Virus record (IMG/VR): IMGVR_UViG_3300020183_000358
Location: 1 to 28,680 of that record
DNA from: a virus
Reading direction: 5' to 3' (one strand)
Length of the DNA: 28,680 bases
The notes under the pieces were generated by a model. That model had not been told where the DNA came from and ran no database searches. It saw only the letters and a list, made by a program, of their open reading frames with translations. Shown here piece after piece: positions 1 through 26,564 of the stretch; the first letter of the stretch is position 1; every line of letters begins with the position of its first letter. Made by a program: the position numbers and the translations under genes.

Positions 1-1270
1 ATCCTGAACCATAAGGTGCAGCTTTACCCGCTTGTGGGTCTGATGCTTCTTTCATTTTACGTAAGCGTTCTGTTTTTTCTTTAGATGCCTCTTTTTTAGC
101 AGTAATATATTCAAGTCCTTTTTTTAAACGAGATTTTACTTTAGGATCTTTTGCTTTAGCATAAGCTGCTCTAACACGTTGGTGAATCAAATTAATAATT
201 TGAGATTTACGAGCGTGTTTTTTTGATTTAAACGATGTTTTAGATAACGTATCTTTTATATCTTGAGCAGTTTTAAATTTAATGCTAACTGTATCTTTGG
301 GATTTTCATCTGTGTATAAACGACGACCTGATCCTTTAGGTTTTTTGCCTGTGCCTGTTTTAGGATCTACTTCGTTTAATATGTCTATTAATTTAATTGA
401 TTCTTTTAATTTATCAGTTTTAAATTGAATTAAGTCTTCTTTGTCTAATACTTTAGTTTTAATTTTGTCTAGTCCTAAATTTAAAGCTTTTTCTAATCTA
501 TGCGTTCCATCTAGCATAGCAAATATTTTACCATTTTCATTTTGAACAGCAATAATAGGATAAGATAAATCAGCTTTCATTACTCTTTCTTTAGTTTTAG
601 ATGGATCACTATCTTGTCTTCCACTAAAGTTGTATTTTATATCTTTAGGATCTATTTCTTTTACAGGTGTATTTTTTGCTAAATCAATAACATCACTTAC
701 TTTAAATTTAATTTTAAAATCACTACCATCTTTAAATTTTTCATCAGTATCCCACACGCCTGCTGTCTTATCAATAGATTCATTTAAATCAGGTTTAAAA
801 CCTTTTTTTTTAAATCCATCATGAAACCATTGTGGTAAATTATTAAACTTAGTTTTAATAGCTGTTTTACCATTTTCAAACCAATCAGGATATAATGTAT
901 AATAACCTCCTATTTTTTTATATTCTGAAGGTATTTGGTTTTCAGGTGTTATTTTTAGTGGTTCAGATATTCCTGGGAATTGGTTTGCTGTAAAGTCAAC
1001 ACCATATCCATCTATAATAGTAAATATATGTGAATCACCCTCTTTACTTTTGCCAGGAAATTTTTTAATATCTTCAGGAGGAGCTAATAATAAAGCATTA
1101 GGTTCAAATCCTTTATTTTTTTTAAGCCAATTTATAAATTCAAAAGTAGAACGTTTACAGTCATGATTAGAATTATAACTATCAGAATTCATAAATTCTT
1201 TAGCTATACTAACAATTTCTTGCTGTTTATCATTTAAAACCTCTTTTAATATTTTAATTAAAGAAATCAT
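1..1270 (-). CDS. ParB-like domain phage protein, 3' end cut by window edge
   Basis: The frame is open from an ATG at 1270 to the left edge, giving at least 423 residues with no stop. The ATG overlaps the TGA of the preceding gene by 4 bases (ATGA), which fixes the start. Residues 1-11 (MISLIKILKEV) form the hydrophobic N-terminal tag seen on several proteins here. Residues about 228-275 look like a ParB/sulfiredoxin-type fold: KADLSYPIIAVQ followed by the box DGTHRLEKALNLG (254-266), where DGxHR is typical of ParB N-terminal domains. Residues 291-300 (SIKLIDILNE) repeat the tag-like pattern. They precede a basic Lys/Arg-rich region (about 305-410, starting KKPKGSGRRLYTDEN) that I recognise only as a conserved phage module of unknown role. 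ParB-like domains can be DNA-binding, CTPase or nuclease; none of these activities can be assigned from sequence. The real C-terminus lies outside the window. Confidence 0.85.
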   Translation of the reverse strand, partial: MISLIKILKEVLNDKQQEIVSIAKEFMNSDSYNSNHDCKRSTFEFINWLKKNKGFEPNALLLAPPEDIKKFPGKSKEGDSHIFTIIDGYGVDFTANQFPGISEPLKITPENQIPSEYKKIGGYYTLYPDWFENGKTAIKTKFNNLPQWFHDGFKKKGFKPDLNESIDKTAGVWDTDEKFKDGSDFKIKFKVSDVIDLAKNTPVKEIDPKDIKYNFSGRQDSDPSKTKERVMKADLSYPIIAVQNENGKIFAMLDGTHRLEKALNLGLDKIKTKVLDKEDLIQFKTDKLKESIKLIDILNEVDPKTGTGKKPKGSGRRLYTDENPKDTVSIKFKTAQDIKDTLSKTSFKSKKHARKSQIINLIHQRVRAAYAKAKDPKVKSRLKKGLEYITAKKEASKEKTERLRKMKEASDPQAGKAAPYGSG

Positions 1271-1677
1271 TTTGTTTTACCCCATTTTTTACCTTTACCT
1301 GGGTCTTTGCATTTTGCAGGTGTAGGGCGACATGAAGGATATTTTGAGCGGGTTTCACCCTTTTCTCTACCACAAGCTTTATAGCCTGTTATTTTACCAT
1401 CTTTTCTAATAGGTGCATTACAATCAACCCATCCACCTTTTTTACCAGGTGCTCCTTTACGTTTGAACCAAGTGCGAAGTGTTTCTTTTGCTTTTTCTCG
1501 AATTAATTCTTCTTTAATACCTTTCCAAATTTTACCTTTACGGCATCTAACTACAGCACCGGATTTATAAGCCGATGGTTTGTCAAATTTACGGTCAGCA
1601 ATACGTAAACATCTGTCACGTTTGCTTTTTTGTTCTTCAAGAACTTCGTTAATAAGTTTCTGTAGTCTATCTTCCAT
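1267..1677 (-). CDS. Small basic cysteine-containing phage protein
   Basis: 136 residues, strongly basic, function unknown. I chose the ATG at 1677 because the upstream gene's TGA shares its A (TGATG). An in-frame TTG at 1683 would add only two residues. Residues 1-12 (MEDRLQKLINEV) are a tag-like amphipathic helix ending in INE. The C-terminal half has a conserved-looking core: WFKRKGAPGKKGGWVDCN, then ACGREKGETRSKYPSC and a last Cys before a Lys/Gly tail. The spaced cysteines (CN, ACG, PSC, AKC) could bind a metal, but no standard zinc-finger spacing is clear. Similar basic GGW-containing proteins are known to me from other T4-like environmental phages as domains of unknown function. The charge suggests nucleic-acid contact, possibly inside the capsid; this is inference. 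Confidence 0.8.
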   Translation of the reverse strand: MEDRLQKLINEVLEEQKSKRDRCLRIADRKFDKPSAYKSGAVVRCRKGKIWKGIKEELIREKAKETLRTWFKRKGAPGKKGGWVDCNAPIRKDGKITGYKACGREKGETRSKYPSCRPTPAKCKDPGKGKKWGKTK

Positions 1678-2354
1678 CACCAAAATCCTGAAAATGAGCT
1701 TTTTAAACCTAATAAAGATGCGTATCTTGGGAGTCTACATGACCAGTATGACGCCTTTGTTCTATCTTTTTTATTTTTACAATCGTGACGTGCAGCAAAT
1801 GCTCTACGTGCTTTAGGATCGTTTATTTTAGCAGACATTCCTACTTGACCGAAAGATACTTTTTTAACTCCACCTCCAGGCTTTCTAACATAAACGTAGA
1901 ATTTTTTAGATCCGCCACGTTTTGGTTTTCCAATTGGTGGATTTTTCTTTTTACCTTCAGCTTCCTCAAGTTCTTCTTCCTCCAACATAGGTAATCCTAA
2001 AGGTACTCTTTGATTTTCATACATTCCATAGTTACCTAAATCAGTTTCCTCTAGAATTTCTTTATCATCATCATTTACATGAATGATTTCACGTAAATAT
2101 AAAGCACGAGCTTCTGCCCATAAATTAAGAAAAGCTTCCGAACCATATCGGAACGTGTTTTCGGTAAGTGGGAGTTGATTTACAACGTGATAACGCAAGT
2201 TTTCCGATAATATTTCCTTAGGTGCTATACTTTCGTTTAAAATAACACCAGCATTACCTACGTTTTCACAAGTATTACAACCACAACTACATTTTTCTTC
2301 TGTAACGTGGTGGTATACTTCTTTAATTAGTTGTTTTAGACGTGTCTTATCCAT
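1677..2354 (-). CDS. Putative internal/core virion protein with C-terminal ARHxC...YWSCRLPRY module
   Basis: 225 residues. It starts MDKTRLKQLIKEV, a tag-like helix with an IKE site, followed by a cysteine cluster CSCGCNTC (22-29) that could bind metal. The middle (about 40-135) is helical and acidic and ends in LEEEELEEAEG. A basic C-terminal module (about 140-225) reads KKFYVYVRKPGGGVKKVSFG, then AARHDC, YWSCRLPRYA and a final aromatic FW. I recognise this module from uncharacterised proteins of marine and other T4-like phages; its function is not known to me. The gene follows its upstream neighbour after an 11-base gap that contains a TATTTATA element, and overlaps the next gene by one base. 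LEE followed by A at 129-132 is a possible prohead-protease site separating the acidic part from the basic module. Confidence 0.82.
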   Translation of the reverse strand: MDKTRLKQLIKEVYHHVTEEKCSCGCNTCENVGNAGVILNESIAPKEILSENLRYHVVNQLPLTENTFRYGSEAFLNLWAEARALYLREIIHVNDDDKEILEETDLGNYGMYENQRVPLGLPMLEEEELEEAEGKKKNPPIGKPKRGGSKKFYVYVRKPGGGVKKVSFGQVGMSAKINDPKARRAFAARHDCKNKKDRTKASYWSCRLPRYASLLGLKSSFSGFW

Positions 2355-2357
2355 GTT

Positions 2358-2365
2358 TATAAATA
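2358..2365 (-). promoter_or_regulatory. TATTTATA element upstream of the 2354 start
   Basis: The minus strand reads AATATTTATAAAC ending 3 bases before the ATG, filling the short gap after the previous stop. The same element precedes the starts at 25232, 22615 and 28242. A 3-base distance is too short for an ordinary promoter of this gene, so a translation-initiation or RNA-level role is also possible. Confidence 0.4.
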
Positions 2366-3883
2366 TTAAGAGGCAGGTTGTATTTTCTGTATTTCAAGGG
2401 TTCCTTGAGTATTACCATTATTTCTAGCATTAATAGTAACTGAATAGGGTTTACCTCCCTTTTCAATGGTAAAATCTATTTTTAAACCTCCAAAGGTTGA
2501 TGAATCTTGAATTTCAATTGGATCATAATCACCGTCAACATTATAAAGTACAATATTTTGTCCTCTAGGAAATTCATCTACTTTACCAGGTTCACCACTT
2601 TTTTGTCCTGTTACTTTAAAAAATGTAGGGTTAATTCCTGAAAGAGATAATGCGAATCCTGCTAGGGCTACAATAGCATCATCAACTTGATCGTTAGGGA
2701 ATTGTCTAAATAAAAATTCAATAGATTTTAAAGCAGCATATTTGCCACGTAAGAATTTAACATCCGATTTAAGATTTCCAGAGTCTAATTTATATTGAAT
2801 ATTTGGGTTTCCTTGAATATATGATGAAATTTTCTTTCTTAATTCTTGTATACCATTGATATACTGTTGTTCATCAAAATCAATTTCATCTGAAGTTAAA
2901 TTGTAGTCGTCTTTAACTTTAGTGTATTTGTTAAGGAGTGCTTTTGCTTTACCTCCTTGAGCTTCTTGTTGTTTTAAAGAAACAGCTGTAAGGGGTTTTG
3001 AATTATCTCCCCAGGAATCATTAAACATATCATTTAATAATTCTATATTATCTGCATTTTCAATACCTTCAACAGGACCTAATTGAACATATAAATCACC
3101 AGGACACCACTTGTCTGCAGGAATACCAGTTAAAGATTGAGCTTTGTTTCGAATAACATTAAATACTCCTGTTCGTATAAGTTTTTGTCCAGGATAAGCC
3201 TCTTTAATAGCTAAAGCGGATGATAATGGTTGATTAATAAAATCGATATATTGTTTTTTAGGTTCTCCTGAAATAGCTTGAAGATAGGAGGCTACTTTTT
3301 TAGATGTTTCAGGACTTTCTCCGGAAATACCTTTATTAGAAATTTCTATAAGTTGAGATATTCTATTTTGATAATTTTCAGCATCAAATGGTGTTTCAAT
3401 ATTAGAAGAATAAAATAAAGAAACTAAAGCTTCTTTAACATCAGTATCACTTGATGTTTCTTCAGATGCACCTTTTACAATTAATCTATATCGTTTCCCA
3501 TCAAAATCAACTTGAGCACTTCCTAAACTTGATCCAGTAGCTAATTTTTTAAAATTTGAAATTGAATCACCTTTATCAGCTAATTGCTTGATAGCATCAT
3601 AAACATCAAGTCGCATTTGATCAGCTTGTTTTCCTCTTCCAGGAATATTTGAAAATATAAGTTTTAAAGTATCTTTTCCAGATGCTTCTATATCTCCATA
3701 TTCATCAAATAAACCAGATTGTTTTAGAGCATTAACTAGATCTTGATTTTCTAAAATCAAATTAATACCTAGTTTTTTAAATTCATTTTCTAAAATTAAA
3801 ATATCCTGCTCATTTTTCATGTCAGGATATCCTTTTGGAAATTTATATGCTATACTATATAAGAATTTTTCTAAAACGTCCAT
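2366..3883 (-). CDS. Conserved phage protein of unknown function, possible nuclease-like core
   Basis: 505 residues; start ATG at 3883 shares its A with the upstream TAA. No signal peptide or membrane segment. The N-terminal third is helical. Residues 254-305 contain IPADKWCPGDLYVQL, a conserved-looking LNDMFND (283-289) and LTAVSLKQQEAQGGKAK (298-314). This order (KWxPxD, then an xSLK strand followed by Ala/Gly-rich residues) is one I associate with phage and giant-virus proteins that may have a PD-(D/E)XK-like fold, but I cannot verify this. The C-terminal 110 residues are beta-rich (FGGLKIDFTIEKGGKPYSVTINAR). The neighbours are probable head/core proteins, so a virion component is a fair guess. 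I do not recognise a specific family. Confidence 0.8.
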   Translation of the reverse strand: MDVLEKFLYSIAYKFPKGYPDMKNEQDILILENEFKKLGINLILENQDLVNALKQSGLFDEYGDIEASGKDTLKLIFSNIPGRGKQADQMRLDVYDAIKQLADKGDSISNFKKLATGSSLGSAQVDFDGKRYRLIVKGASEETSSDTDVKEALVSLFYSSNIETPFDAENYQNRISQLIEISNKGISGESPETSKKVASYLQAISGEPKKQYIDFINQPLSSALAIKEAYPGQKLIRTGVFNVIRNKAQSLTGIPADKWCPGDLYVQLGPVEGIENADNIELLNDMFNDSWGDNSKPLTAVSLKQQEAQGGKAKALLNKYTKVKDDYNLTSDEIDFDEQQYINGIQELRKKISSYIQGNPNIQYKLDSGNLKSDVKFLRGKYAALKSIEFLFRQFPNDQVDDAIVALAGFALSLSGINPTFFKVTGQKSGEPGKVDEFPRGQNIVLYNVDGDYDPIEIQDSSTFGGLKIDFTIEKGGKPYSVTINARNNGNTQGTLEIQKIQPAS

Positions 3884-4362
3884 TATGCTTCAGGTGTTTC
3901 TTCTGGTGTTTCTGCTGGTGGGGTTTCTGCTGGTGCTTCAGCTCCTGGGAGTTCTGTTCCTAGATCAGCTGCACCACCTTCAGCTGCTCCTTCTTCAGCT
4001 TTAGCTCCATAGCGTAAAATATTTGCTATTGATTGAGCAGCTCTTTCTTCTTCTGGTAAATTAAGTAGGTAATACTTTTTACCTTCAATTTGTGCAATCC
4101 AACTACGTTTACCATAGATTAAATAAAATAATTGACCATTTTGTAAATTAATACGAAATGTAGTGGGACGTGGTGCAACCCAATCAATTGACTCTAGAAA
4201 ATTATCATATTCTAAAGTAAGTAAATCAACAATAACTTTCTTAAGTTCAGGAAACTTAGTTAATTCATCATACTCAATAGCCTCTTCAGGAGTAATTGTA
4301 GTAGCTGAGTAAACTTGTTTAGTTAAGTTTCTAATTCTATCAATTAATTGATCACGTGTCAT
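3883..4362 (-). CDS. Conserved phage protein with Ala/Pro/Glu-rich tail
   Basis: 159 residues, coupled at both ends by one-base stop/start overlaps. Residues 1-125 look folded: an N-terminal helix (MTRDQLIDRIRNLTKQV), then a beta-rich segment FRINLQNGQLFYLIYGKRSW and QIEGKKYYLLNLPEEE. From about 124 to the end the sequence is low-complexity and acidic, with repeated PAET/PEET units, and is probably disordered. There are no catalytic motifs. The upstream and downstream partners are conserved phage proteins of the putative core cluster, so a structural or assembly role is likely. I cannot name a family. Confidence 0.8.
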   Translation of the reverse strand: MTRDQLIDRIRNLTKQVYSATTITPEEAIEYDELTKFPELKKVIVDLLTLEYDNFLESIDWVAPRPTTFRINLQNGQLFYLIYGKRSWIAQIEGKKYYLLNLPEEERAAQSIANILRYGAKAEEGAAEGGAADLGTELPGAEAPAETPPAETPEETPEA

Positions 4363-5135
4363 TATTTTTCTTTAAGTTTAGCTAAAATAGCCTTTTTAAT
4401 TTCTTCTTCCATTGCCACTGATGTAGAAATAGGGCCTGCTTTTTTATCAGGCATACCTTGAGCTTTTAAAGCATCAAATACTTTACCACGTTTTTTAATT
4501 TGTTTTTTTGACATCTCGTCAATTACATCTTCTTGAGCAGCAACATCAACCATAGCATCGATTTGAGGTTCTTTAATTTCGAAATCAAGGTAATGTTTTG
4601 CTGAAACTAAGCAAGATTTGGCTTGAATAATTTTTGCTTGCCACCAATGAGGAAAATCAACTTCTTGTTCACCTTCATATTGATCAACCATTTTATAAAG
4701 TTCCATAGCGTATTTTCCAATACGATATAGATCTGCTTTAAGCATATGAGGTTCATCATCTGTATGGCCTAGATCAAGGTCTTCATCTACTTTACCTTTA
4801 GCTTTTTTAATAGCAATATCACGAGCCATTAAATAGTCTTTAGAATCAATTTTTCCATCTGGTTTTCCTTTAGGGCCTGTTAAATCTTTACCTTTTTTTT
4901 CAGATAATGGCTTAGATAAAGCCGCTTGAATCATTTCTTTTAATCTAGTATTTTCCATAGGGGTATCAGTTGTTTCTTCTTTAGCTTTTTTCTTTTTTTG
5001 GTTACTAACGGCGATACTATAAGCATATAGTTCACCATCAGCACCCTTTTCATCATAAAGTTTTTCTAAACGACTACCAACGATAGACTTAAAGTTCTGC
5101 ATTATTTCTTGTGAATCTTGAGAATTAAAGTCCAT
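4362..5135 (-). CDS. Conserved T4-like phage protein with EF-hand/dockerin-like loop
   Basis: 257 residues. Residues 1-50 are helical with a KKKKAK stretch. An internal MENTRLKEMIQAALSKPLSE (60-79) repeats the tag-like helix and could alternatively be a secondary start. DLTGPKGKPDGKIDSKDYL (about 85-103) resembles a dockerin or EF-hand calcium loop with poor ligand spacing. Residues about 128-200 (PHMLKADLYRIGKYAMELYK, then DFPHWWQAKII and SAKHYLDFEIK) form a helical domain I have seen in many environmental T4-like phages without known function. The start at 5135 lies 14 bases after the stop of the histone-like gene. The end shares one base with the next start. A prohead-core or internal virion role is inferred from context. 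Confidence 0.82.
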   Translation of the reverse strand: MDFNSQDSQEIMQNFKSIVGSRLEKLYDEKGADGELYAYSIAVSNQKKKKAKEETTDTPMENTRLKEMIQAALSKPLSEKKGKDLTGPKGKPDGKIDSKDYLMARDIAIKKAKGKVDEDLDLGHTDDEPHMLKADLYRIGKYAMELYKMVDQYEGEQEVDFPHWWQAKIIQAKSCLVSAKHYLDFEIKEPQIDAMVDVAAQEDVIDEMSKKQIKKRGKVFDALKAQGMPDKKAGPISTSVAMEEEIKKAILAKLKEK

Positions 5136-5149
5136 TATAGTATGTTTAA

Positions 5150-5320
5150 TTAAGCTTTGTCTTCTGCAGTTGAAGTCTTTTTAAAATCAGCTGCAAGTTT
5201 TTTAATGCTATTAGCTGCACTACGTGCACGTCCACGAGCTGCTTTTGATGTTTTAGCATGCTCAGTTTCCATAATAGCAACTTGTTCTTTAATTGTGTCT
5301 AAAATTTCAGTTGTGTTCAT
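5150..5320 (-). CDS. Histone H1/Hc1-like DNA-binding protein
   Basis: A 56-codon gene beginning MNTTEILDTIKEQV, ending TAEDKA and a TAA stop. The core (residues 23-50) contains SKAARGRARSAANSIKKL and DFKKTS. It follows the pattern KAA-x2-RAR-x-A, then KL, then F-(K/R)-K-x-S, that I know from the Hc1-type histone H1 proteins (Pfam Histone_HNS/Hc1-like group) found in Bacteroidota. These proteins are short helical DNA-compacting factors. An N-terminal acidic/hydrophobic helix precedes the basic half, as in that family. The gene sits between a very acidic protein (5350-5907) and a conserved core-like protein (4362-5135). I infer that it binds phage DNA or helps condense it during packaging, or modulates host chromatin. 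It has no Shine-Dalgarno sequence; the leader is A/T-only (AATAAAATTT before ATG). Confidence 0.8.
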   Translation of the reverse strand: MNTTEILDTIKEQVAIMETEHAKTSKAARGRARSAANSIKKLAADFKKTSTAEDKA

Positions 5321-5349
5321 AAATTTTATTAATTATAGATTATTAAATA

Positions 5350-5907
5350 TTAGTCTTGTCCACCCCCAATATATTCGCTAACGAAAAATTTAAGTGTGTT
5401 TCCAACTTGTGTTTCAAGTTTTTCATTGTTCATTCCTTTTGCAATCTGGAATGCTTTCATTAAGTGGTCCATAAGATCAGCTTCTGTACCTTTCATATCG
5501 GCTGCTAAATCTTCAATACCACCAGTTGCTTCAGGAGCATCTTCAATAGGAGCTTCTTCAGCAGGCATTTCTTCTTCAGTATCAGTTACTTCAACGTCTT
5601 CTACTTCTTCATCTTTTTTCTTTGCTTCTTCAAGTTCAGCATCTTCACCTTCGTAAACAGGATCAGTTTCATCTACAACTGTTTCTTCAGCTAATTCAGC
5701 AACAATCATTTCTTTGATTTTTTCTTTTAATGAAGCTTTTTTATCATTTTTCATATCATCTTCTAAATCGCGAATATGAGCAGCATCATCTTTTTCAGCG
5801 TCTTTATAATAATCCTTTTCATTTTCATTTAATGATTTAATTGAAGGATTTAAATTCTCAAGAGCTTTACTTTCCTTTAAGAATTTTTTTAAGTCAAAAT
5901 TGTCCAT
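5350..5907 (-). CDS. Very acidic phage protein, candidate prohead core/scaffold
   Basis: 185 residues. It begins MDNFDLKKFLKES, a tag-like helix with an LKE site. A second helix of the same kind, SLKEKIKEMIVAELAEE, lies at about 58-74. Residues 75-135 are dominated by Glu and Asp (EEVEDVEVTDTEEEMPAEEA) and are probably disordered. The last 50 residues form an amphipathic helical domain (LMDHLMKAFQIAKGMNNEKL) ending GGGQD. Acidic, helical, protease-site-rich proteins are typical of T4-like prohead cores (gp22, gp67 and gp68 in T4), but there is no direct sequence match I can claim. The start at 5907 shares its A with the previous TAA. The following gene is the basic histone-like protein, an acidic/basic pairing that may matter. 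Confidence 0.8.
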   Translation of the reverse strand: MDNFDLKKFLKESKALENLNPSIKSLNENEKDYYKDAEKDDAAHIRDLEDDMKNDKKASLKEKIKEMIVAELAEETVVDETDPVYEGEDAELEEAKKKDEEVEDVEVTDTEEEMPAEEAPIEDAPEATGGIEDLAADMKGTEADLMDHLMKAFQIAKGMNNEKLETQVGNTLKFFVSEYIGGGQD

Positions 5908-6533
5908 TATTTTTTCTTATTATTTGTGTATAAATATTCGGAGAGGAGTGTTCCTATAACTCCTGTCTTCTGTCTAATAAAAGACCATTCGTCTTTTACT
6001 AAATGATGTGGTTCTTTATATGATATACCTAATACACCAATTAAATGATTATCTAAACTGTATAAACCAAGCATACAACACGATCTAGTTCCAAATTGAA
6101 GTGTTAAATGTTCTAAACCGTATGTATCTTCTGCTGATGTTACATCATCAATTGCCAATTCTGTATCCTTGTATATTTTGGCTAATACTCTAGGGAATAA
6201 AGATACTGGGATATTTTGGAAGGTATGTTGAATGTTTTGGGTGTTTGGGGATGTTTTTTCGTGAAAAAGGGAAAACTTTTGAATAGATTTACCTGTGGGA
6301 TAAAAATGACCTCCATTATGGAATTGAGCCAACCATATACGATCACAATTGAGTTCATCCATCATTATATCTAATTGATCTTCTATTAGATTAGAAGTTT
6401 CAAGTGCCTCACGTACAGGAGTTTTTTCATCTTTTTTCTCCATTTTGAGTTTTACCCAATTTACTATAATTGGTCCAACTATAGCAGTAATTACCGCTAC
6501 AATTATAGTTTCAATCATTATAAGAGTATCCAT
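5907..6533 (-). CDS. Membrane-anchored GAF-domain protein
   Basis: 208 residues. Residues 3-27 (IETIIVAVITAIVGPIIVNW) form one strongly hydrophobic segment followed by a basic patch (KLKMEKK), predicting an N-terminal membrane anchor with the rest cytoplasmic. Residues about 45-200 look like a GAF domain: NLIEDQLDIMMDELNCDRIW, FHNGGHFYPTGK (71-82), a central Cys pair RSCCMLGLY and LIGVLGISY near the end. GAF domains bind small molecules such as cyclic nucleotides or act as redox sensors; no ligand can be assigned here. It is coupled by one-base overlaps to both neighbours. A holin or signalling role is possible but not shown. I recall similar TM-GAF proteins in environmental T4-like phages. 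Confidence 0.8.
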   Translation of the reverse strand: MDTLIMIETIIVAVITAIVGPIIVNWVKLKMEKKDEKTPVREALETSNLIEDQLDIMMDELNCDRIWLAQFHNGGHFYPTGKSIQKFSLFHEKTSPNTQNIQHTFQNIPVSLFPRVLAKIYKDTELAIDDVTSAEDTYGLEHLTLQFGTRSCCMLGLYSLDNHLIGVLGISYKEPHHLVKDEWSFIRQKTGVIGTLLSEYLYTNNKKK

Positions 6534-7105
6534 TATTTTTTAAGTGAATTTAAGTATTTGATTACATCGTCTAAAGACTGTTGGGCTTTTTCTTTGTCTA
6601 TACCACCAACCCATTTTTGTACTTCACCATTTTCAGAAACGAAACCATTAGCTGTATCAGCTAAAATATTTTCAAACCATTTTTTATATTCTTGTATTTG
6701 TTGATCAATTTCAGCATTAAATGTTTGGTTAGTGTAATCTGTCCAAGTACCAGCAAGTTTCATTTGTGTCTCGGTTTTAGCTCTACAATCAACACATTCA
6801 CCATATGCTTTAAAATAAAATGGATCTAACTGTTTATCCATTATCTGTTTACATTTTGGACAAAACAATGGAACTGCTACTTTTTTAAGTTTATCTAGTT
6901 TAGTAACATTTTCTTTAATACCATCTCGGATAGTCCAAGTTTTACCTCTTTCTTCCCAAACATCACCTTCTTTATGTGATTGTTGTTCTTCACCATTATA
7001 ACCAATTCCCATAGTAGTACGATCACCCGATTTACCTTTTACAAGGTTACGTAAACGTTCTACATCACGTTTGTTAAACTCTTTTTTTAAAATCGAATCT
7101 GCCAT
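6533..7105 (-). CDS. Zinc-ribbon conserved phage protein
   Basis: 190 residues. It has two CxxC knuckles, FCPKC (C82, C85) and ECVDC (C104, C107), 18 residues apart, forming a typical four-Cys zinc ribbon. The N-terminal part (MADSILKKEFNKRDVERLRN, then GDVWEERGKTWTIRDGIKEN) looks like a conserved phage-specific domain. The C-terminal helix region (IDQQIQEYKKWFENILADT) is probably alpha-helical. There are no enzymatic motifs. I recognise the overall pattern from other environmental myophages but know of no function; nucleic-acid or protein contact via the ribbon is a guess. It is joined to both neighbours by TAATG overlaps, so it is probably translated with the HAD enzyme and the GAF protein. 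Confidence 0.82.
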   Translation of the reverse strand: MADSILKKEFNKRDVERLRNLVKGKSGDRTTMGIGYNGEEQQSHKEGDVWEERGKTWTIRDGIKENVTKLDKLKKVAVPLFCPKCKQIMDKQLDPFYFKAYGECVDCRAKTETQMKLAGTWTDYTNQTFNAEIDQQIQEYKKWFENILADTANGFVSENGEVQKWVGGIDKEKAQQSLDDVIKYLNSLKK

Positions 7106-7680
7106 TATAACTTGTATTTTTCTTTAAGAATTTCTAATGTTTTTAGAGCTGAAGTATGAAGGATAGCTTTACCGCCACTTGCTTTCCAAGCATCAGTATT
7201 TTTTTCCATATCATCTATTAATATGTTTTTTGGACCAGCATATATAGCTTTTTGAGGAGCAGGTACAAATATTTCTTCACCTACACTACTAAGATTCCTT
7301 GAAATCCATTCTTTTTTTCCTTGAATAGCTTGATTTTTTTCAGGACTTAATTGTTCATCATATGGAAGACTAAAATCTACTGCTGGGGCTGAAAGGATAT
7401 TTGGAGTGTATTGTTGGATATGGGACCAAAGTTCTTTTCCTCCGGGTTGCCATTTTAGATTTGCCCAAAAATCTTTTTCTTTGATATTTTTTTCTTCAAG
7501 TTTTTCCCTAAATAATTCCCAAAAATAAGATTTTCCAACAGCATTAGCTTCTTGAGTTGACATATCTGTTAAATCAGCATATCCTTGGTCAAAATCACAA
7601 AGTACACCATCCATATCACAATAAATGGAATAAGGTCTAATTGCTTCGTATAAATCTAATAATGTAGGTGTTTTTTTCAT
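7105..7680 (-). CDS. HAD-superfamily 5'(3')-deoxyribonucleotidase-like phosphatase
   Basis: 191 residues. HAD motif I is CDMDGVLCDF with the nucleophile D22 and general acid D24. Motif II is probably ILSAP (95-99). A motif III lysine is likely in the KKEWISRNL or KAIYAG region. Motif IV is ILIDDMEKN with D156 and D157. The order, size and DMDGVLxDF start fit the NT5C-type 5'-nucleotidase group that removes phosphate from (deoxy)nucleoside monophosphates. Related T4-like phage proteins exist. The first 13 residues (MKKTPTLLDLYEA) precede the HAD fold and look like the N-terminal tag, with LYE before A. The substrate is inferred from family only. The downstream gene starts on the last base of this stop codon. 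Confidence 0.88.
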   Translation of the reverse strand: MKKTPTLLDLYEAIRPYSIYCDMDGVLCDFDQGYADLTDMSTQEANAVGKSYFWELFREKLEEKNIKEKDFWANLKWQPGGKELWSHIQQYTPNILSAPAVDFSLPYDEQLSPEKNQAIQGKKEWISRNLSSVGEEIFVPAPQKAIYAGPKNILIDDMEKNTDAWKASGGKAILHTSALKTLEILKEKYKL

Positions 7681-7698
7681 ATTAAAATTTAGGCAAAT

Positions 7699-9168
7699 TT
7701 ACAACATATCTTTTACTCGTTCAAGTAATTCTTCATTAAAATCAATTCCATGTCGAAATTTAAATTGTTTTTCTAACTTTTCTGTTGAAAATCCTTTATC
7801 TTTTAATAATAAATAAGCTCCTAAATCAGCATCCATTTCATCATCTGCTGAGTATGGGCCTGTATGTCCTAAAAGTAAATGGGCTATTTCATGTGCTTCA
7901 ACAATTTTCATGTCTTTAAAATCTAAATTAGAATTTACAAAAACCTCACCATCTAAAATAATTGTTTTATTTTCAGGATAGTAAAAACCATACCCATATT
8001 CATCAAATAAAGGTTCTAAATTTGGATAATTTTTATTATTTTTAAAAACAACTAATATATTTGTATCCGGTTTAAAATTGCTAGGATATGAAATTAAGTC
8101 ATCTTCTTTTTCTTCTTTTAAAACACCTTCAGTTAATGTATCTGTCCACTCTCTAAAAGTCATGGTTCCTTTCAGATTAGCTTCTTCTTCTAATTTATAT
8201 AGATAATCATCTTCATTAATATCAGTAGTAGATATATTATTTAAACGATTATCACAATTTTGCATATGGTGAATCATTTCATGCGCGTAAGAACGCATAA
8301 CATCTTTTGGATGACGATTCATTGTATAAAGTACTATAACGCGGTTATTCGGGTCGTAATACGCGGTTTTACCAAAGAAATTTTGTGCATTTTCAGCGTC
8401 ATCATCTACAAATTTTACTTTAGGTAAAGGACGTATATTCATACCTTTATCCAACATATATTCTGTAAGTGATTTAATCATTGGAGGGTAGCTAAATTTA
8501 CTTGGTTCAGCATACATTTCTTCAATTCCCCCAGGTGTATTTAATTTTTTACCAGTTGCAGCATCTATATTATAACCACAAGTACCTTCTTCTACAGGGG
8601 TTTTAGTTAAGATAGACCAAACTTTATCCTTTTCCTCGTCTGTAAGTTCAGTTGGAAGATATTGTTGAAATCTTTCTTTTTCTCCACCGATTAAAGCAGC
8701 ACGTGTGTTTGTACCACTAATACGATCTTCACCTTCTTCTGATTGAATTACAAGGGGTTTAAAATTATCGTATTTACCTTTTAAGCTATCAAAGCGTTTT
8801 AGATCACCTAAATCCATTTCATTACGAATACCTACTACAGGGTAGTACATATTTTGTGGGTTGTTTTTGATAATAGAAGCAACATCTGAAATAGGAGATG
8901 ATTTTTCTGCTATTTGAATTTCAACATTAGATGAAAGATATTTTTTGTAGAGATTCCAGATTTCTAAACTTTCCTCTTTAGAGACACCATCTCGATTTTT
9001 ATGTCCAATCAAGACGATTACTTTATCTATATTTGAATTTTTAGCTACTTCATCAACCAATGCAAAGTGACCAGCTGTAGGTGGTTTAAAACCACCAGGC
9101 ACTAGAGCAATGTTTTGTCCTTCTGTCTCTAGAATGGGTTGTATGAGTGATTTAACGAACGAATTCAT
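7699..9168 (-). CDS. Nucleotidyltransferase fused to two HExxH metallopeptidase domains
   Basis: 489 residues with three parts. Residues 18-185 form a cytidylyltransferase-like (HxGH-type) nucleotidyltransferase: ALVPGGFKPPTAGHFALV with T-x-G-H at 31-34, and RISGTNTRAAL (149-159) matching the ISSTxxR box of NMNAT/PPAT-type enzymes. Residues about 225-340 carry a first zincin site, AHEMIHHMQN (H296, E297, H300), with KLEEEAN (325-331) as a candidate third ligand. Residues 360-489 carry a second, ImmA/IrrE-like site: EAHEIAHLLLGH (H426, E427, H430) followed by DDEMDADLGAYLLL (442-455). The N-terminus (MNSFVKSLIQPILETEG) is tag-like. LTE before G at 345-348 lies exactly between the two protease domains and could be a processing site. 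The start overlaps the kinase gene by 17 bases. Substrates are unknown. An NAD-related reaction for the first domain is possible but not demonstrated. Confidence 0.85.
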   Translation of the reverse strand: MNSFVKSLIQPILETEGQNIALVPGGFKPPTAGHFALVDEVAKNSNIDKVIVLIGHKNRDGVSKEESLEIWNLYKKYLSSNVEIQIAEKSSPISDVASIIKNNPQNMYYPVVGIRNEMDLGDLKRFDSLKGKYDNFKPLVIQSEEGEDRISGTNTRAALIGGEKERFQQYLPTELTDEEKDKVWSILTKTPVEEGTCGYNIDAATGKKLNTPGGIEEMYAEPSKFSYPPMIKSLTEYMLDKGMNIRPLPKVKFVDDDAENAQNFFGKTAYYDPNNRVIVLYTMNRHPKDVMRSYAHEMIHHMQNCDNRLNNISTTDINEDDYLYKLEEEANLKGTMTFREWTDTLTEGVLKEEKEDDLISYPSNFKPDTNILVVFKNNKNYPNLEPLFDEYGYGFYYPENKTIILDGEVFVNSNLDFKDMKIVEAHEIAHLLLGHTGPYSADDEMDADLGAYLLLKDKGFSTEKLEKQFKFRHGIDFNEELLERVKDML

Positions 9169-9901
9169 TTACTTTACTTTTTGCTGTCTCTATAGAATCA
9201 AATTCAGGTTCTTTTTGGAGTAGAGATTGTATTTGTTGATTAACGGCTTCTTTTTCTGCTTTTGATTTTGCTAATTCCTCAGGTGATTTTTCTTTACCTT
9301 GTGGATTAGGGAACATTTTTTGGATTTCCTCTGAATTGAATGATTTATTAGCATCAGAAGGATCATTGTTGATTACAACTATGTTATTTTCAAATAATTG
9401 TCTGTATGATTCAATATTGTTCATTACACTAGCCCAGCTTTTTAATACTGCACTTGTAGGTAAACTTCTACCACGTTGTGCATTACGAATTAACGAGGTC
9501 ATCGGTGAAACATAAATTAAAATCATAAAAACATCATATCCCATGTTTTCTAGTTCCTCTTTTTTCTTTGACACTACTTTATATGAAGCACCAGTTCCAT
9601 CTATTACAACATTGTTTAGATTAGTTGTAGCTAGCAACTCTTTTTCTTTAGTTGTTGCTCTAGCTTTTCCCATCATTTTAGCTGCAATGGAAAGTTCTTC
9701 AGGGGACATTGAAGCAAAATCAGATTTACCTAATTCTTTTTGTAAAAGTGCTTCAAAATCATCATCTACATTAATTATAGTGAAATCTTTAAGACCAAGT
9801 TGGTTAAGTGTATATGATTTTCCTGCACCTGCAGGACCTGCCATCAAAATAGCTTTAGGTTGGGATTGAACCTCCTTTAACAATTGAACCAGACTTATCA
9901 T
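9152..9901 (-). CDS. Zeta-toxin/AAA_33-like P-loop kinase
   Basis: 249 residues. Walker A is GPAGAGKSY at 22-30, just after the tag-like N-terminus MISLVQLLKEV. NVDDDFEALL (about 44-53) corresponds to the acidic substrate-side motif of zeta toxins and polynucleotide-kinase-like P-loop proteins. VVIDGTGASY is the second core strand (DGTG is typical of AAA_33/zeta proteins). IYVSPMTSLIRNAQRGRSLP carries the arginine-rich lid region. The last 45 residues (KSPEELAKSKAEKEAVNQQ) are a charged helix outside the kinase core. The reaction is probably ATP-dependent phosphorylation of a small molecule, nucleic-acid end or protein; the family does not tell which. No antitoxin (epsilon-like) gene is adjacent, so a plasmid-style toxin-antitoxin role is unlikely. 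Confidence 0.85.
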   Translation of the reverse strand: MISLVQLLKEVQSQPKAILMAGPAGAGKSYTLNQLGLKDFTIINVDDDFEALLQKELGKSDFASMSPEELSIAAKMMGKARATTKEKELLATTNLNNVVIDGTGASYKVVSKKKEELENMGYDVFMILIYVSPMTSLIRNAQRGRSLPTSAVLKSWASVMNNIESYRQLFENNIVVINNDPSDANKSFNSEEIQKMFPNPQGKEKSPEELAKSKAEKEAVNQQIQSLLQKEPEFDSIETAKSKVNEFVR

Positions 9902-9912
9902 ACTTATACGTA

Positions 9913-10686
9913 TTACAATTCTCGTTTAGCCGTTGTTCTAAATTCAGTAAATACTGGAGAATGGGTTGGGTTTTCTAGATCAAACAGGCGTTTTACTGTT
10001 TTAAAGATGTCAATATTTTCTTCAAATGAACGAGTTGATTCAACTACTTCCCATCCTTTTCCTTGCATTTTATCTTTTTTAGCACCTCGTTTAGATGATT
10101 TCAACCATAAAATACCGTAACGGTCTATTTTCTTTCCAAAACATTCTTCATAACATTGACCATAAACTGCTGTTTGTAATTCATATGTTGTTTGAAGTTG
10201 GTTAGATGTTTTTAAATCTAATAACCACAGTTCACCATTAATTTCAACAATTAAATCGCATGTGCCTGCTACTTTAAGTTCATCTGAGAATAGATGTACT
10301 TCTGTTTCAATTAAATTTGGTTTAAACGTTTCCCAAAATTCAACAAAACGTAAAAACATTTGCCAAACATCAGGATTACATTGTGGGCTACCATTACTAT
10401 CTAAAAAATTTAATTCTTCACCATTTAAATATGCTTCACACAGTTCGTGAGTTTGGGTACCTTCTTCAGCTGCTTTTTTAACAATATAGTCAGCAGAGAA
10501 ACCTACTTGCTTTAACCAATTTTCAAAAAATTTACCTTTTGGATAGTATCCCAAAACATACGTTACCGAAGGATAATATTTCCCATTACGACGATAGTAA
10601 CGGGAATCAGGTAAAGTGATTTGAGTTGCATCATCAGAAATCTCAAGGATGCGGTCATAGGATTTTTTAATGTTCCTTTTTTTCAT
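9913..10686 (-). CDS. PD-(D/E)XK nuclease, Cas4/RecB-like
   Basis: 257 residues. The motif order is that of RecB/Cas4-family exonucleases: GTQTHELCEAYL (H80), an acidic residue in LIETEVHLF (E127/E129), AGTCDLIVE with D144, LLDLKTS with D157 and K159 (the D-x-K pair), and the QxxxY motif QTAVY (171-175). I see no cysteine cluster of the iron-sulfur Cas4 type. The start at 10686 overlaps the primase stop by 4 bases (ATGA), so the two are likely co-translated. A role in phage replication, recombination or host DNA degradation is probable. The N-terminus lacks the tag-like helix found on the following three genes, which fits an enzyme acting in the infected cell and not packaged. Confidence 0.88.
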   Translation of the reverse strand: MKKRNIKKSYDRILEISDDATQITLPDSRYYRRNGKYYPSVTYVLGYYPKGKFFENWLKQVGFSADYIVKKAAEEGTQTHELCEAYLNGEELNFLDSNGSPQCNPDVWQMFLRFVEFWETFKPNLIETEVHLFSDELKVAGTCDLIVEINGELWLLDLKTSNQLQTTYELQTAVYGQCYEECFGKKIDRYGILWLKSSKRGAKKDKMQGKGWEVVESTRSFEENIDIFKTVKRLFDLENPTHSPVFTEFRTTAKREL

Positions 10687-22641: not shown

Positions 22642-24486
22642 TTATAAAGGAACTACTTTGCCTTTTATGTCTAAATTAGGGTATCTTACTTCAAAAATAC
22701 TAGGATCTAATGAAGGATAAATTACTTGATTTTGTGTTGCACCTGCTATATCATAAGCATATTGTGAATACCCTGAAAAAGTTCCTGCTTTATTTGATAT
22801 GGAAATATTTTTAACTGATTGTACTCCTGAAATTTTATCAAGGAGAATATATAAATCGCGGAGTAAAATAGGTTGGTTAAGTTGCCATTTATCTAATCTA
22901 AAATAATTTTGTAAAGCTGTGATGCAAGCTAACAATACTTCACTATTATTATATTCAGGTAATACTATAATTTCAAAATCAACACCAATATTAATAATAA
23001 ACGCATCACGGATTTCAATATTGTCTCCAATCATTCTATATTGAGATAGATAAGTTCGTAAATTATTTTTTAACGTAGAACTAGCATAATCTAATTGACC
23101 TTGAGCATTTAAAGATAAAACATATAAATTAAGTGTCTCAATAGTTGAAACTTGATTATCTGTTAATTTAGGTTGTTCAATAAATGCTTTAGATATTGAA
23201 CCATAATCAGAAGGCATACTTAAAGCACGAATTAAATAATCATCAGCCGTTACTGAACGTTGTTGGGATGATATAAGGGCTAAAGTATTTTGACGAATTT
23301 CTTCTAATGTGTCTCCTCCTTTTCCTCCTGAAGCTGCTACTTCATTAGTAGAGGTTAAAGATTCATACACATAATTAGCTGTTGCATCTACTAAATTTAT
23401 TTTGTTGAATTTAGTATTACTTTTGTTTAAAGAAGTTAATGTTCCAGAATTAACATTAGAATTAACACCACCTCCAGTTAAATATCTTACGGTTAATGTT
23501 GTATTTGATGGTGCAATACCATAGGTACCTGTAAATAAAAAGTTTGTAGGTGAATAAGCTACAGTTAATTTATCTTGTTCAAATGGTAATCCAATACCTA
23601 CATTATCTACATTTGGGGTAATTTCTTCAGTAACATCATTAGGGGCACCAGCACCAAACTGAATTTGTAAGTTGGAAAGGGAAATAAAACGGGTTGCAAA
23701 ACGACGAGCTACTTTTTTTAAACGAAGTAAATAAGGTGTATCTCCGTTTGCATTTGGATCATTTACATTAGTATTTTTAATAGTATCTAATACCATTTCT
23801 TGACCTAAATGATCTACCTCATACCATTTATTTCCATCAGAATCTATTACATCTAATATTTTAATAATATTAGTATCATTAATGTTTATAGTAGTAAACT
23901 GTTCAGGAGCTCCAAAAGTTAAATTTAATGTTTTAAGTTCAGCTGAAATAGCTCTTCTAGTTTTTTCAAGTAGATAATATTGAGGAACATTACCAGCAAT
24001 TTGATATACAGTAACTGTAGTTGGGTCTTGGGAACTAGAAACTGAGAAATCAGCTTTGTCTTGGATTAAAAAGGATTGACCATTTGGAGTTGTTACTGTA
24101 CTATTTTCTCCTACTGTTAATGCATAATCATAATCAGGAACATAATTACCACTAACTAATTTAGAGGGAATTTGTTGATATAAAGTAATAGTAGTTTGTG
24201 CTACACCTATTGTTTTTGGTTTGTAACCAAACATATATGCTAATTCAAATACATTATTTGTTTGTTGAGCATATTGAACAAATGTTTCTTGAAATTGGTT
24301 ATCTAAGTAGAAACTTAAAACATCCCCAACATAAGCAGCTTGTTCCATAAACATCATACCAGGAGATGTTGTTGAGAAATCATTGTATGTTTGAGGGAAG
24401 TATGTTCTAGCATACTCTATTAAACGTGCTCTAAAATCTGAAAAGTCACGGTTAATATATTTTATGTCTCTATTTGTTGTAGCCAT
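22642..24486 (-). CDS. Baseplate wedge protein, gp6/baseplate J-like
   Basis: 614 residues (T4 gp6 has 660). The N-terminus MATTNRDIKYINRDFSDFRA is characteristic of T4-like gp6 proteins. GMMFMEQAAYVGDVLSFYLD (about 43-62) is the conserved helix of the gp6/baseplate J family. A J-like core follows in the middle (RSVTADDYLIRALSMPSDYG, about 412-431, and TLNLYVLS). A C-terminal part (LRDLYILLDKISGVQSVKNI) is typical of the domain that closes the wedge. The protein forms the wedge dimer core of the myovirus baseplate. It directly follows the gp25-like gene with a 3-base gap, the same gp25-gp6 order as in T4. Confidence 0.93.
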   Translation of the reverse strand: MATTNRDIKYINRDFSDFRARLIEYARTYFPQTYNDFSTTSPGMMFMEQAAYVGDVLSFYLDNQFQETFVQYAQQTNNVFELAYMFGYKPKTIGVAQTTITLYQQIPSKLVSGNYVPDYDYALTVGENSTVTTPNGQSFLIQDKADFSVSSSQDPTTVTVYQIAGNVPQYYLLEKTRRAISAELKTLNLTFGAPEQFTTININDTNIIKILDVIDSDGNKWYEVDHLGQEMVLDTIKNTNVNDPNANGDTPYLLRLKKVARRFATRFISLSNLQIQFGAGAPNDVTEEITPNVDNVGIGLPFEQDKLTVAYSPTNFLFTGTYGIAPSNTTLTVRYLTGGGVNSNVNSGTLTSLNKSNTKFNKINLVDATANYVYESLTSTNEVAASGGKGGDTLEEIRQNTLALISSQQRSVTADDYLIRALSMPSDYGSISKAFIEQPKLTDNQVSTIETLNLYVLSLNAQGQLDYASSTLKNNLRTYLSQYRMIGDNIEIRDAFIINIGVDFEIIVLPEYNNSEVLLACITALQNYFRLDKWQLNQPILLRDLYILLDKISGVQSVKNISISNKAGTFSGYSQYAYDIAGATQNQVIYPSLDPSIFEVRYPNLDIKGKVVPL

Positions 24487-24489
24487 GGG

Positions 24490-24897
24490 TTAAAATTGGA
24501 AAGTTATATTTCCATTAATATTAGAATTAGGTATATAGTATTTTAATTGGACTATTAAAGTATTATTATCTTGTTGGGTGGTTAAAACTTGTAAAGAATC
24601 TATTTGAATCATAGGAAAAGCAGTTTCTAATTTTGATTGTACAAAAGCTCTAACATTATCTACAGTTACGTTAGATATTTGTTCAAATAAAAAATTTCTT
24701 AAACCAGCCCCAAAACTTGGATTTAATGGGATTTCTCCTGGGTTGGTTAGAAAATAATTAATTAGGTTAGTTTTAACTACTTCTTGAGTAGTGTAAGTAG
24801 AACTAAATACACTAGTATTATTAAAAGGAATAGAAACTCCCAATCCAGTATTTGGATTTAAATTTGCAGGAGATATAGTTTGTTGATTAAATGCCAT
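24490..24897 (-). CDS. Baseplate wedge protein, gp25/GPW-like
   Basis: 135 residues, matching T4 gp25 (132). The GPW/gp25 signature is NYFLTNPGEIPLNPSFGAGL (47-66), with the following FLFEQ helix. The strands DSLQVLTTQQDN and LIVQLKYYIPN finish the fold. The protein is the sheath-proximal wedge component that starts sheath polymerisation in contractile tails, so this gene identifies the phage as a myovirus. The start at 24897 shares its A with the upstream TAA. It precedes the gp6-like gene. Confidence 0.93.
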   Translation of the reverse strand: MAFNQQTISPANLNPNTGLGVSIPFNNTSVFSSTYTTQEVVKTNLINYFLTNPGEIPLNPSFGAGLRNFLFEQISNVTVDNVRAFVQSKLETAFPMIQIDSLQVLTTQQDNNTLIVQLKYYIPNSNINGNITFQF

Positions 24898-25232
24898 TAT
24901 TTGCTATTCAATAAACTCATAATTTGATCCATTCCTACTTCACCCGTACCTAAATTACCATTTATGGGGTCACTTACTTGTGGTCTAAATGGAACTTGAA
25001 CGTCTTGAGAAGTAAAACTAAGCATAGTTTCATTCATAATATCAGAATATGCTTTTCTTGTATCCATTACTGGTTGAGTAAATGTAGGTTTAGGTGTATC
25101 TATTGTTTGAATAGATTCCTTTACAATTGTTTTTGGAGTACGAACCGCCTCCAAAAGAATATCTTTTAGTTCCTCTTGGATTACCTCTCGTACAGCTTCT
25201 TTAATTAATTTTTTTAATCCGTCGGTTTTCAT
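24897..25232 (-). CDS. Small tagged phage protein, baseplate region
   Basis: 111 residues. The first 30 (MKTDGLKKLIKEAVREV, then IQEELKDILLEAV) form a long amphipathic helix with IKE-A and LLE-A sites, the strongest example of the tag in this window. Residues 35-85 are Thr/Pro-rich and probably flexible. The C-terminus (PFRPQVSDPINGNLGTGEVG, then MDQIMSLL) ends in a short motif I recall from other environmental phages. No enzymatic motif. It lies between the carboxypeptidase-regulatory-like protein and gp25. It may be an internal or assembly protein, and its location among baseplate genes is odd for a capsid cargo. Confidence 0.78.
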   Translation of the reverse strand: MKTDGLKKLIKEAVREVIQEELKDILLEAVRTPKTIVKESIQTIDTPKPTFTQPVMDTRKAYSDIMNETMLSFTSQDVQVPFRPQVSDPINGNLGTGEVGMDQIMSLLNSK

Positions 25233-25237
25233 ATGTT

Positions 25238-25245
25238 TATAAATA
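25238..25245 (-). promoter_or_regulatory. TATTTATA element upstream of the 25232 start
   Basis: The minus strand reads TTAATATTTATAAACAT ending 5 bases before the ATG. It is nearly identical to the element before the 2354 start (AATATTTATAAACAT). Both precede genes whose products begin with the tag-like helix. Confidence 0.4.
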
Positions 25246-25250
25246 TTAAA

Positions 25251-26564
25251 TTAGTCAGCTTTTAAATCATTTTGCTGAATGTAAAATACTAATTCATCTA
25301 TTAATATTTGGTCAATTGAACTAAATGACCATTCTCCTTTAAGCATTACTACACCTTGTTTGTTTCGGGCTATGGCTCTTCTACGTTTTAGAGTATTAGG
25401 TGAATTTTCTGTTTCAACACCCATTTCAAACCCATTTATATTTGTAACTACAGGGGATAATTGAACAGATTGTTGGGTAGTTAATGCTGTTAATTCAGCA
25501 GAAATTTGTTCTTGAGCAGCATCCGGATAACAATATTGAGTTAATATGTCTAAAAGTTTTAAAAGAGCAAGAACTTCAGTTAAAACACCTCTTAATAAAG
25601 TCAAAATTGCTAAAGTAGCAGTATTAACATAAAGTAATTTTTCTACTAAATTATCTAAAAATTTAAGTACGTCTTGAATACCTGTAATAACTCTTAAAGG
25701 AATACCAACTCCTCCAATAGCTACTGGCGTTGGTAATTGACGAATAATTTTAATAGTAGGAGAAGTAATGGCTAAAATTTGTTCTGATTTAGCTAGGATA
25801 TCAGTTGTTTTGTTAATAACAGTAAGTGTATCACTTATTTTTTTAACTAGTTTATTTTTAGTAGCTATTAATTTATCCATTTCAGGTTGTGAAGGACATA
25901 CTATTAAATTTTTAATTTCCTCAAGAGCAGCTTGAGGGTCTTTTTCATATTTTTCAATTAATTCTTTAGCTTTACTAATTCCATAGGCTGCAATAAGAGT
26001 TAATATTAAGGGGATTACTATGGCTTTTAATGTATCTATACTTACATTTAACTTCTTTTGAATTCTAAAGTCAACAGTTACACCTTTAGTAGCATAATCT
26101 TCTACCGTTGATGGAGGAAATTTTAAAAGATCTAAAATTTCTTTTTTAAGGTCTGATTCTAAAGGATTTAAGGTAATTATACCTAAATTAGATTTAATAT
26201 CTCCTGTTGATTTATAAGGAATAGTATTAAAAGGACCATATTTTATTTTTGTAAAATTTAAAGGAAATTTAGCAGGATCTAGTCCAGTACCTGCTATATC
26301 AGGATGTTTTATAGTAAATTCTCCTTTTTTATTTGTTGTATCTCTTTTTAATAATTTATTTGTAACTACAACTCCGGGGATAGGTTCATTAGTAATTTTA
26401 TTAACAACAATTCCTTGAATTTTTTTAAGTTTAATTTTTTTAGGTAATTCAGGAAGAGACCCAGTACTAGGAAGTTGAGGTATATCAATTCCAACTAAAG
26501 ATAATACTTTTTGTAAATCAATTTCTATTTCTATAGAACCAGTATTTTGAGTATCTACTGCCAT
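25251..26564 (-). CDS. Baseplate-region protein with carboxypeptidase-regulatory-like domain
   Basis: 437 residues. Residues about 48-135 look like a carboxypeptidase D regulatory-like beta-sandwich: KKIQGIVVNKITNEPIPGVV, then TNKKGEFTIK (77-86) and NLGIITLNP. This is the pattern G-x-V-x-(D/N)-x-x-T-x-x-P-(I/L)-x-G-V. Residues 178-196 (TLKAIVIPLILTLIAAYGI) form a hydrophobic helix, followed by long helical stretches (about 200-360, for example LEEIKNLIVCPSQPEMDKLI) and a hydrophobic part (LLRGVLTEVLALLKLLDILT). It carries no peptidase active site. The position between the gp5-like spike and gp25 suggests a baseplate or hub-associated protein. The hydrophobic helices could reach the host membrane during injection; that is speculation. 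Confidence 0.82.
   Translation of the reverse strand: MAVDTQNTGSIEIEIDLQKVLSLVGIDIPQLPSTGSLPELPKKIKLKKIQGIVVNKITNEPIPGVVVTNKLLKRDTTNKKGEFTIKHPDIAGTGLDPAKFPLNFTKIKYGPFNTIPYKSTGDIKSNLGIITLNPLESDLKKEILDLLKFPPSTVEDYATKGVTVDFRIQKKLNVSIDTLKAIVIPLILTLIAAYGISKAKELIEKYEKDPQAALEEIKNLIVCPSQPEMDKLIATKNKLVKKISDTLTVINKTTDILAKSEQILAITSPTIKIIRQLPTPVAIGGVGIPLRVITGIQDVLKFLDNLVEKLLYVNTATLAILTLLRGVLTEVLALLKLLDILTQYCYPDAAQEQISAELTALTTQQSVQLSPVVTNINGFEMGVETENSPNTLKRRRAIARNKQGVVMLKGEWSFSSIDQILIDELVFYIQQNDLKAD

Follow-up and report, generated by a model that had tools for sequence, protein, structure and literature searches.

Apparent T4-type capsid-targeting sequences, much expanded and extended to polyprotein joints, in relatives of Flavobacterium phage immuto

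Introduction

Why do unrelated proteins of one phage begin with the same short helix? The window analysed here is the full 28,680-base virus record IMGVR_UViG_3300020183_000358, a fragment without head genes whose main genes all lie on the minus strand. Read from its high-coordinate end, it passes through baseplate and tail genes, a SegE-type GIY-YIG endonuclease, a DnaG-type primase and a PD-(D/E)XK exonuclease to a cluster below 9.9 kb, where the shared starts are found. A sequence-only reading of this DNA had proposed a portable capsid-targeting tag with a prohead-protease site, as on T4 internal proteins. T4-type capsid targeting is already known; what is new here is the presence of (L/I)xE at exchangeable joints of multidomain proteins, which the earlier reading had missed.

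Results

Eight window proteins start with a helix of 10 to 14 residues ending in (L/I)xE, and all N-termini quoted earlier were found at their coordinates on the minus strand. Orthologs of seven tagged families were scored for LxE at residues 8 to 15 among distinct N-termini; these counts, like the breakpoint P values, treat related sequences of shared ancestry as independent. The zeta-toxin/PezT-like P-loop kinase begins with MISLVQLLKE/V (9872..9901; LxE in 44/44 orthologs; the slash follows the glutamate) and the open reading frame ORF 2-1270 with MISLIKILKE/V (1241..1270), the two starts being identical at 8 of 11 residues, as had been noted. Recent copying of the tag at the DNA level was considered and rejected, as the tag DNA of these two genes differs at many codons. 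Tags also open a basic DUF5872 protein (MEDRLQKLINE/V, 1645..1677; 16/17), the product that starts at 2354 (MDKTRLKQLIKE/V, 2319..2354; 25/25), an acidic core-like protein of pI 4.2 (MDNFDLKKFLKE/S, 5872..5907; 33/33) and a 5'(3')-deoxyribonucleotidase-like HAD protein (MKKTPTLLDLYE/A, 7645..7680; 28/33). The nucleotidyltransferase (NTase)-metallopeptidase polyprotein carries MNSFVKSLIQPILE/T (9127..9168), previously described as a looser form; with LxE kept in 31 of 32 orthologs, it is a real tag and that label needed correction. The start MKTDGLKKLIKE/A (25197..25232; 22/25) is present as reported, but its membership is doubtful, as this small protein is encoded amid baseplate genes and has a helix that continues for about 28 residues.

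Eight families of untagged neighbours lacked LxE throughout (0/38 for the primase, and 0/44, 0/37, 0/33, 0/48, 0/35, 0/31 and 0/36), and four other control families had it in 26/33 (the exonuclease), 10/49, 5/33 and 2/22 orthologs. The earlier statement that the neighbouring genes lack the tag thus held for the primase but not strictly for the exonuclease. In the window, the latter (9913-10686) has RILE at residue 15, though it resembles a replication protein.

We then compared the frequency of a strict pattern (E at residues 8-14, L or I two before it, and hydrophobics in helical register) with shuffled N-termini, as the sequence-only reading had suggested. The pattern was enriched in all four sequences: 6 of 26 genes in the window against 0.40 expected (0.20 from internal windows), 14/207 against 2.5 in the 166-kb relative G001, 13/212 against 2.4-2.9 in the cultured phage immuto and 6/68 against 0.8 in G009. 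A position-specific scoring matrix (PSSM) was trained on the window families, and immuto and G009 were kept out of the training; it matched 12 of 219 immuto genes where 0.8-1.8 were expected and, by our own count, none of the 43 annotated immuto replication and nucleotide enzymes. The motif is short and incompletely specific, as the PSSM also scores a terminase of G003, and a few improbable genes, as tagged. This terminase large subunit (24049-25647 in G003, within L183) starts with MAEDLKKAIRE/E and is probably a false positive.

Megablast found no match to the window among phage records, and long relatives were retrieved via two window proteins. The cultured one is Flavobacterium phage immuto (Immutovirus, NC_055915), in which baseplate, tail spikes, primase, exonuclease, NTase, nucleotidase and unknown genes are followed by terminase, gp20, gp21 (immuto gp070), a scaffold-like gene (gp067) and gp23 (gp066); its tagged genes include 103366, 103806, 113188, 117631 and 118632. 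Immuto and the window have gene order and tag classes in common and their cargo genes are homologous, but protein identity is only ~30-46% at the genes compared. Gene starts in the other relatives come from a simple caller; in G001 (L168), the span of the gp23 Pfam match holds two TAA stops, yet a 560-aa open gene was called there. The immuto record also contains, at 18607-37015 (in L210), queuosine-pathway genes and a DpdA-type transglycosylase, which suggests deazaguanine DNA modification.

Further unrelated proteins carry tags in G001 and immuto. Several classes could be told apart, namely MIKLxDILKE, MENFDLKKFLxEN, MKKSxLxxIIKEE, MDKxRLKKLIKEV and a longer one, MKKQILSEQFxRMQKLAGIITE/S, which precedes different proteins. 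Across families, hydrophobics concentrate at -6 (0.88), -3 (0.86) and -2 relative to the glutamate, so that these positions and the glutamate correspond to residues 4, 7, 8 and 10 of a 10-mer. Positions -2 and 0 were used to define the tag, and only -6 and -3 are independent support. In T4 IPIII, it is chiefly residues 4 and 7 that govern targeting, and residues 8 and 10 that govern processing (reviewed in PMC9026906). Judged by sequence, the conserved register of the tag is thus the targeting register mapped by mutation in IPIII; the NT5C tags deviate from it at -6/-3. Similar-looking starts occur in T4 itself (MKTYQEFIAE/A in IPII and IPIII, MAKINELLRE/S in gp24), and in a cross-test on 54 T4 genes the known gp21 substrates scored above the rest, although the separation was only moderate (P=0.0014), with a non-substrate ranking best. 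Features expected of T4-type capsid targeting were found: a putative N-terminal propeptide of ~10-20 residues ending in (L/I)xE, its occurrence on unrelated proteins and, with the exception of the NT5C family, hydrophobics at targeting positions 4 and 7.

The earlier reading had also called for a gp21-like protease gene. Five long relatives carry the gp21 family (PF03420) downstream of a syntenic tag module, the same five carry gp23 (PF07068), and gp21 is annotated in immuto as well. In G004, the orthologue of the window gene at 1677 lies at 33.0-33.4 kb, gp21 at 45.2 kb, the scaffold gene at 46.0 kb and gp23 at 47.3 kb, and from this spacing gp21 would be expected about 12 kb past the left edge of the window; by synteny, we infer that the window's own phage carries it. 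The cargo-trained PSSM picked the scaffold gp22 homologues of both held-out phages (MSNKDLLKQAIAE/A and MANKDLLKQAIAE/A), and the N-termini of the major capsid proteins contain SLLE, GLLE or (V/I)VxE close to the T4 gp23 processing point. In immuto, PSSM matches cluster between tail and head genes (8 of 12 fall in 31 of the 219 genes, P=2e-5), and in G001 16 of 23 lie in a head/late stretch of 36 of 219 genes (P=1e-9). A number of tagged genes are located away from the head region (1803 and 24569 in immuto, 105938 and 123246 in G001).

The sequence ATATTTATAAAC occurs on the minus strand at window positions 2355-2366 and 25235-25246, directly ahead of two tagged genes. In G001, 9 genes have a similar motif in the 60 bases upstream of them (23 motifs in total), and in G004 7 genes do (18 in total); several of these genes are structural or tagged. 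The motif is a possible late promoter; its count in the window alone is not above chance.

The enzymes among the window cargo are the zeta/PezT-like kinase, the NTase with metallopeptidase-like domains and the 5'-deoxyribonucleotidase. The basic products or parts of products, which recall the basic internal proteins of T4, comprise the one starting at 1677 (pI 10.2), part of ORF 2-1270 (pI 10.3) and the C-terminal part of the 2354 product (pI 10.9). The latter protein (1677-2354) has nine (L/I)xE in its first 131 residues and then a basic domain of 92 aa, an arrangement suggestive of a degradable front joined to a DNA-binding part. The acidic core-like tagged proteins, which the earlier reading had not set apart, may belong to the scaffold and not to the injected cargo. 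PDB searches with the NT5C protein and with ORF 2-1270 returned nothing useful.

Two very small tagged proteins (146-171 aa), immuto 103366 (L209:33366-33806) and L174:8928-9443, have kinase-like glycine-rich loops. An AlphaFold2 model of the former (mean pLDDT 87.7) matched protein kinases in Foldseek (E ~2e-5, probability 1.00), yet a Pfam match is absent. Residues 1-3 and 8-12 of the model have pLDDT below 50 and the domain from about residue 20 is mostly above 90, so that the tag appears to be loose in the predicted structure. In this kinase-fold family, E10 is invariant and L8 nearly so, and residues 5-6 vary freely. An ART-like assignment of G001 28407 was not supported (low-confidence model with pLDDT 58, best fold match E=0.8).

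Among NTase-type ORFs, domain content varies between phages, and the joints bear (L/I)xE. The joints of the L124 protein read TPIKE/F...ALQE/MYAEPS...TLTE/GVL...PLNE/GRYD, and in L086, L112 and L123 a nucleotidase is fused behind SLNE/N or PLNE/N. The window polyprotein has an exchangeable cassette, GTCGY..LNTPGGIEE (8518..8586, minus strand), between TPVEE/ and /MYAEPS, and a double site, TLTE/GVLKE/E (8113..8136, minus strand), at the joint to its second metallopeptidase domain, where relatives join other domains. The cassette, as GTCGY..LNTPGG(L/I)xE, is shared by NTase proteins and unrelated proteins of L125 and L140, flanked in both by glutamate-ending sites; the L125 protein is laid out as MIKLSHILKE/IIE-cassette-LKE/SDPKTGTG. 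Similarly, a domain of immuto 113188 is found inserted in NTase proteins of G001, L124 and others.

ORF 2-1270 (2..1270, minus strand; cut by the window edge) is a three-part polyprotein. It had been labelled ParB-like, a label without Pfam support; residues 11-164 are followed by a phrog_17560-like part (165-290), to which the ParB-like label corresponds, and, from residue 301, by the basic domain. LxE stands at both internal joints, as LNE/S at residue 164 between the first two parts (779..787, minus strand) and as an internal copy of the tag, ESIKLIDILNE/VDPKTGTG, before the basic domain (371..403, minus strand). The 423 residues hold only five (L/I)xE: the N-terminal tag, LNE/S at 164, LKE/S at 290, KLIDILNE/V and one before proline. 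In L125 and L140, the DPKTGTG domain is a separate gene with its own tag (MIKLSHILKE and MIKLINLLKE, respectively).

Breakpoints in homology were then counted if they had at least 8 supporting comparisons, and scored for (L/I)xE within 6 residues; four settings were run. In NTase-type polyproteins, 42 of 60 breakpoints lay near (L/I)xE against 8.3 expected, and the controls gave 2/33 against 3.7 (tail proteins) and 2/15 against 2.8 (other proteins). The acidic/core families (48/77 against 22.3) are rich in glutamate and were given little weight. In a first, looser count tail proteins were enriched too; under the stricter count the tail value fell and the NTase value rose.

Discussion

What the genomes themselves show is a tag that is conserved and reused on unrelated proteins, the register of that tag, LxE at the joints, and gp21, gp22 and gp23 genes in relatives. 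From these we infer binding, packaging, cleavage and injection, the last three on T4 precedent, and with a probability of roughly 0.8 we take the N-terminal helices to be T4-type capsid-targeting sequences that are cleaved by gp21 and serve head packaging and delivery. The original proposal of a portable tag with a prohead-protease site thus gains support from gp21 and gp23 in relatives, the clustering, the scaffold match and the T4 register; those of its suggested checks that sequence analysis could address all turned out in its favour, and its further steps of virion loading and injection reach beyond these data. Late in infection, tagged proteins would bind the prohead scaffold via the hydrophobic face of the helix and be enclosed in the prohead core, where a gp21-type protease would cut after (L/I)xE and remove the tag. 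The same protease would separate the domains of multidomain proteins at their LxE joints. Mature enzymes and basic proteins would be kept beside the DNA inside the head and, at the next infection, pass into the host; the acidic, site-rich members would probably be core proteins that are largely degraded. We lean, by a narrow measure, towards the further proposal that the prohead protease doubles as a polyprotein processor, so that LxE-bounded cassettes would be enclosed whole and cut in the head into injected effectors.

The helix could instead be a packaging or scaffold-docking signal that stays uncut, with LxE simply belonging to the surface that binds. Its hydrophobic positions could be enough for scaffold binding, and in T4 aspartate at position 10 stops processing while targeting is still possible (PMC9026906), which shows the two to be separable. 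We nevertheless consider this unlikely, as the glutamate is invariant in the aligned families, relatives encode gp21, and LxE is found again at internal joints, for which N-terminal docking would be needless. Less likely again is a partner outside the capsid, which might be a host factor, a regulator or else a protease controlling how long the protein lasts. The tags are tied to the head by sequence only and some of their genes lie outside the head region; however, the clustering beside head genes, the resemblance of the tags to scaffold and T4 gp21 substrates and the agreement of their register with the one mapped in T4 all speak against such a partner. That the start is an ordinary amphipathic helix prone to arise by chance, or a relic of the common descent of neighbouring genes, is the least probable reading, for although the motif is short, related genomes share ancestry and there are a few clear false positives, the window shows 15-30-fold enrichment and the held-out genomes several-fold, the bearers are unrelated, the pattern persists in their orthologs as other tag residues vary, and untagged neighbours do not have it.

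Compared with known systems, the predicted capsid-targeting sequences are closest in kind to the T4 propeptides of IPI, IPII, IPIII and Alt and their protease gp21: a helix of ~10 N-terminal residues, the hydrophobic spacing and the (L/I)xE cut motif are shared, and the window's relatives have gp21, gp22 and gp23 homologues. Unlike in T4, there are far more bearers per genome and several tag classes, most bearers are enzymes or unknown proteins with no relationship to the internal proteins of T4, and fused proteins have LxE at their joints as well. Ejection proteins of giant phages (SPN3US gp245, phiKZ gp175) are inner-head proteins whose propeptides a prohead protease cuts after glutamate, as predicted here; however, in SPN3US and phiKZ most propeptides exceed 100 residues and the motif of SPN3US is AxE (PMC5694885, PMC10052503), whereas the tags described here have 10-23 residues and L or I at P3. 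Phages and conjugative elements also encode polyvalent proteins, multidomain early effectors that combine peptidase and nucleotide-modifying domains, are encoded near virion genes and are predicted to be delivered with DNA, their release being credited to embedded metallopeptidases (PMC5512222). Several effector-type domains per polypeptide near virion genes were found here as well, but with LxE at their joints the prohead protease is the candidate releasing enzyme, metallopeptidase-like domains being present too. The literature on these phages yielded neither virion proteomics or cleavage data nor, as the sequence-only reading had supposed, any earlier description of such tags in the group, immuto included.

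Collectively, this apparently is a T4-type capsid-targeting system that has been much expanded and extended to polyprotein joints. If so, the capsid contents of a widespread, uncultured Bacteroidetes-type phage group would be readable from sequence alone, and the tag would predict which of many unknown proteins, including the protein-kinase-fold family, arrive at the start of infection. The joint sites would provide a testable rule for the evolutionary assembly and the in-head disassembly of injected multidomain proteins, and since the cultured phage immuto bears the same tags, direct testing is possible.
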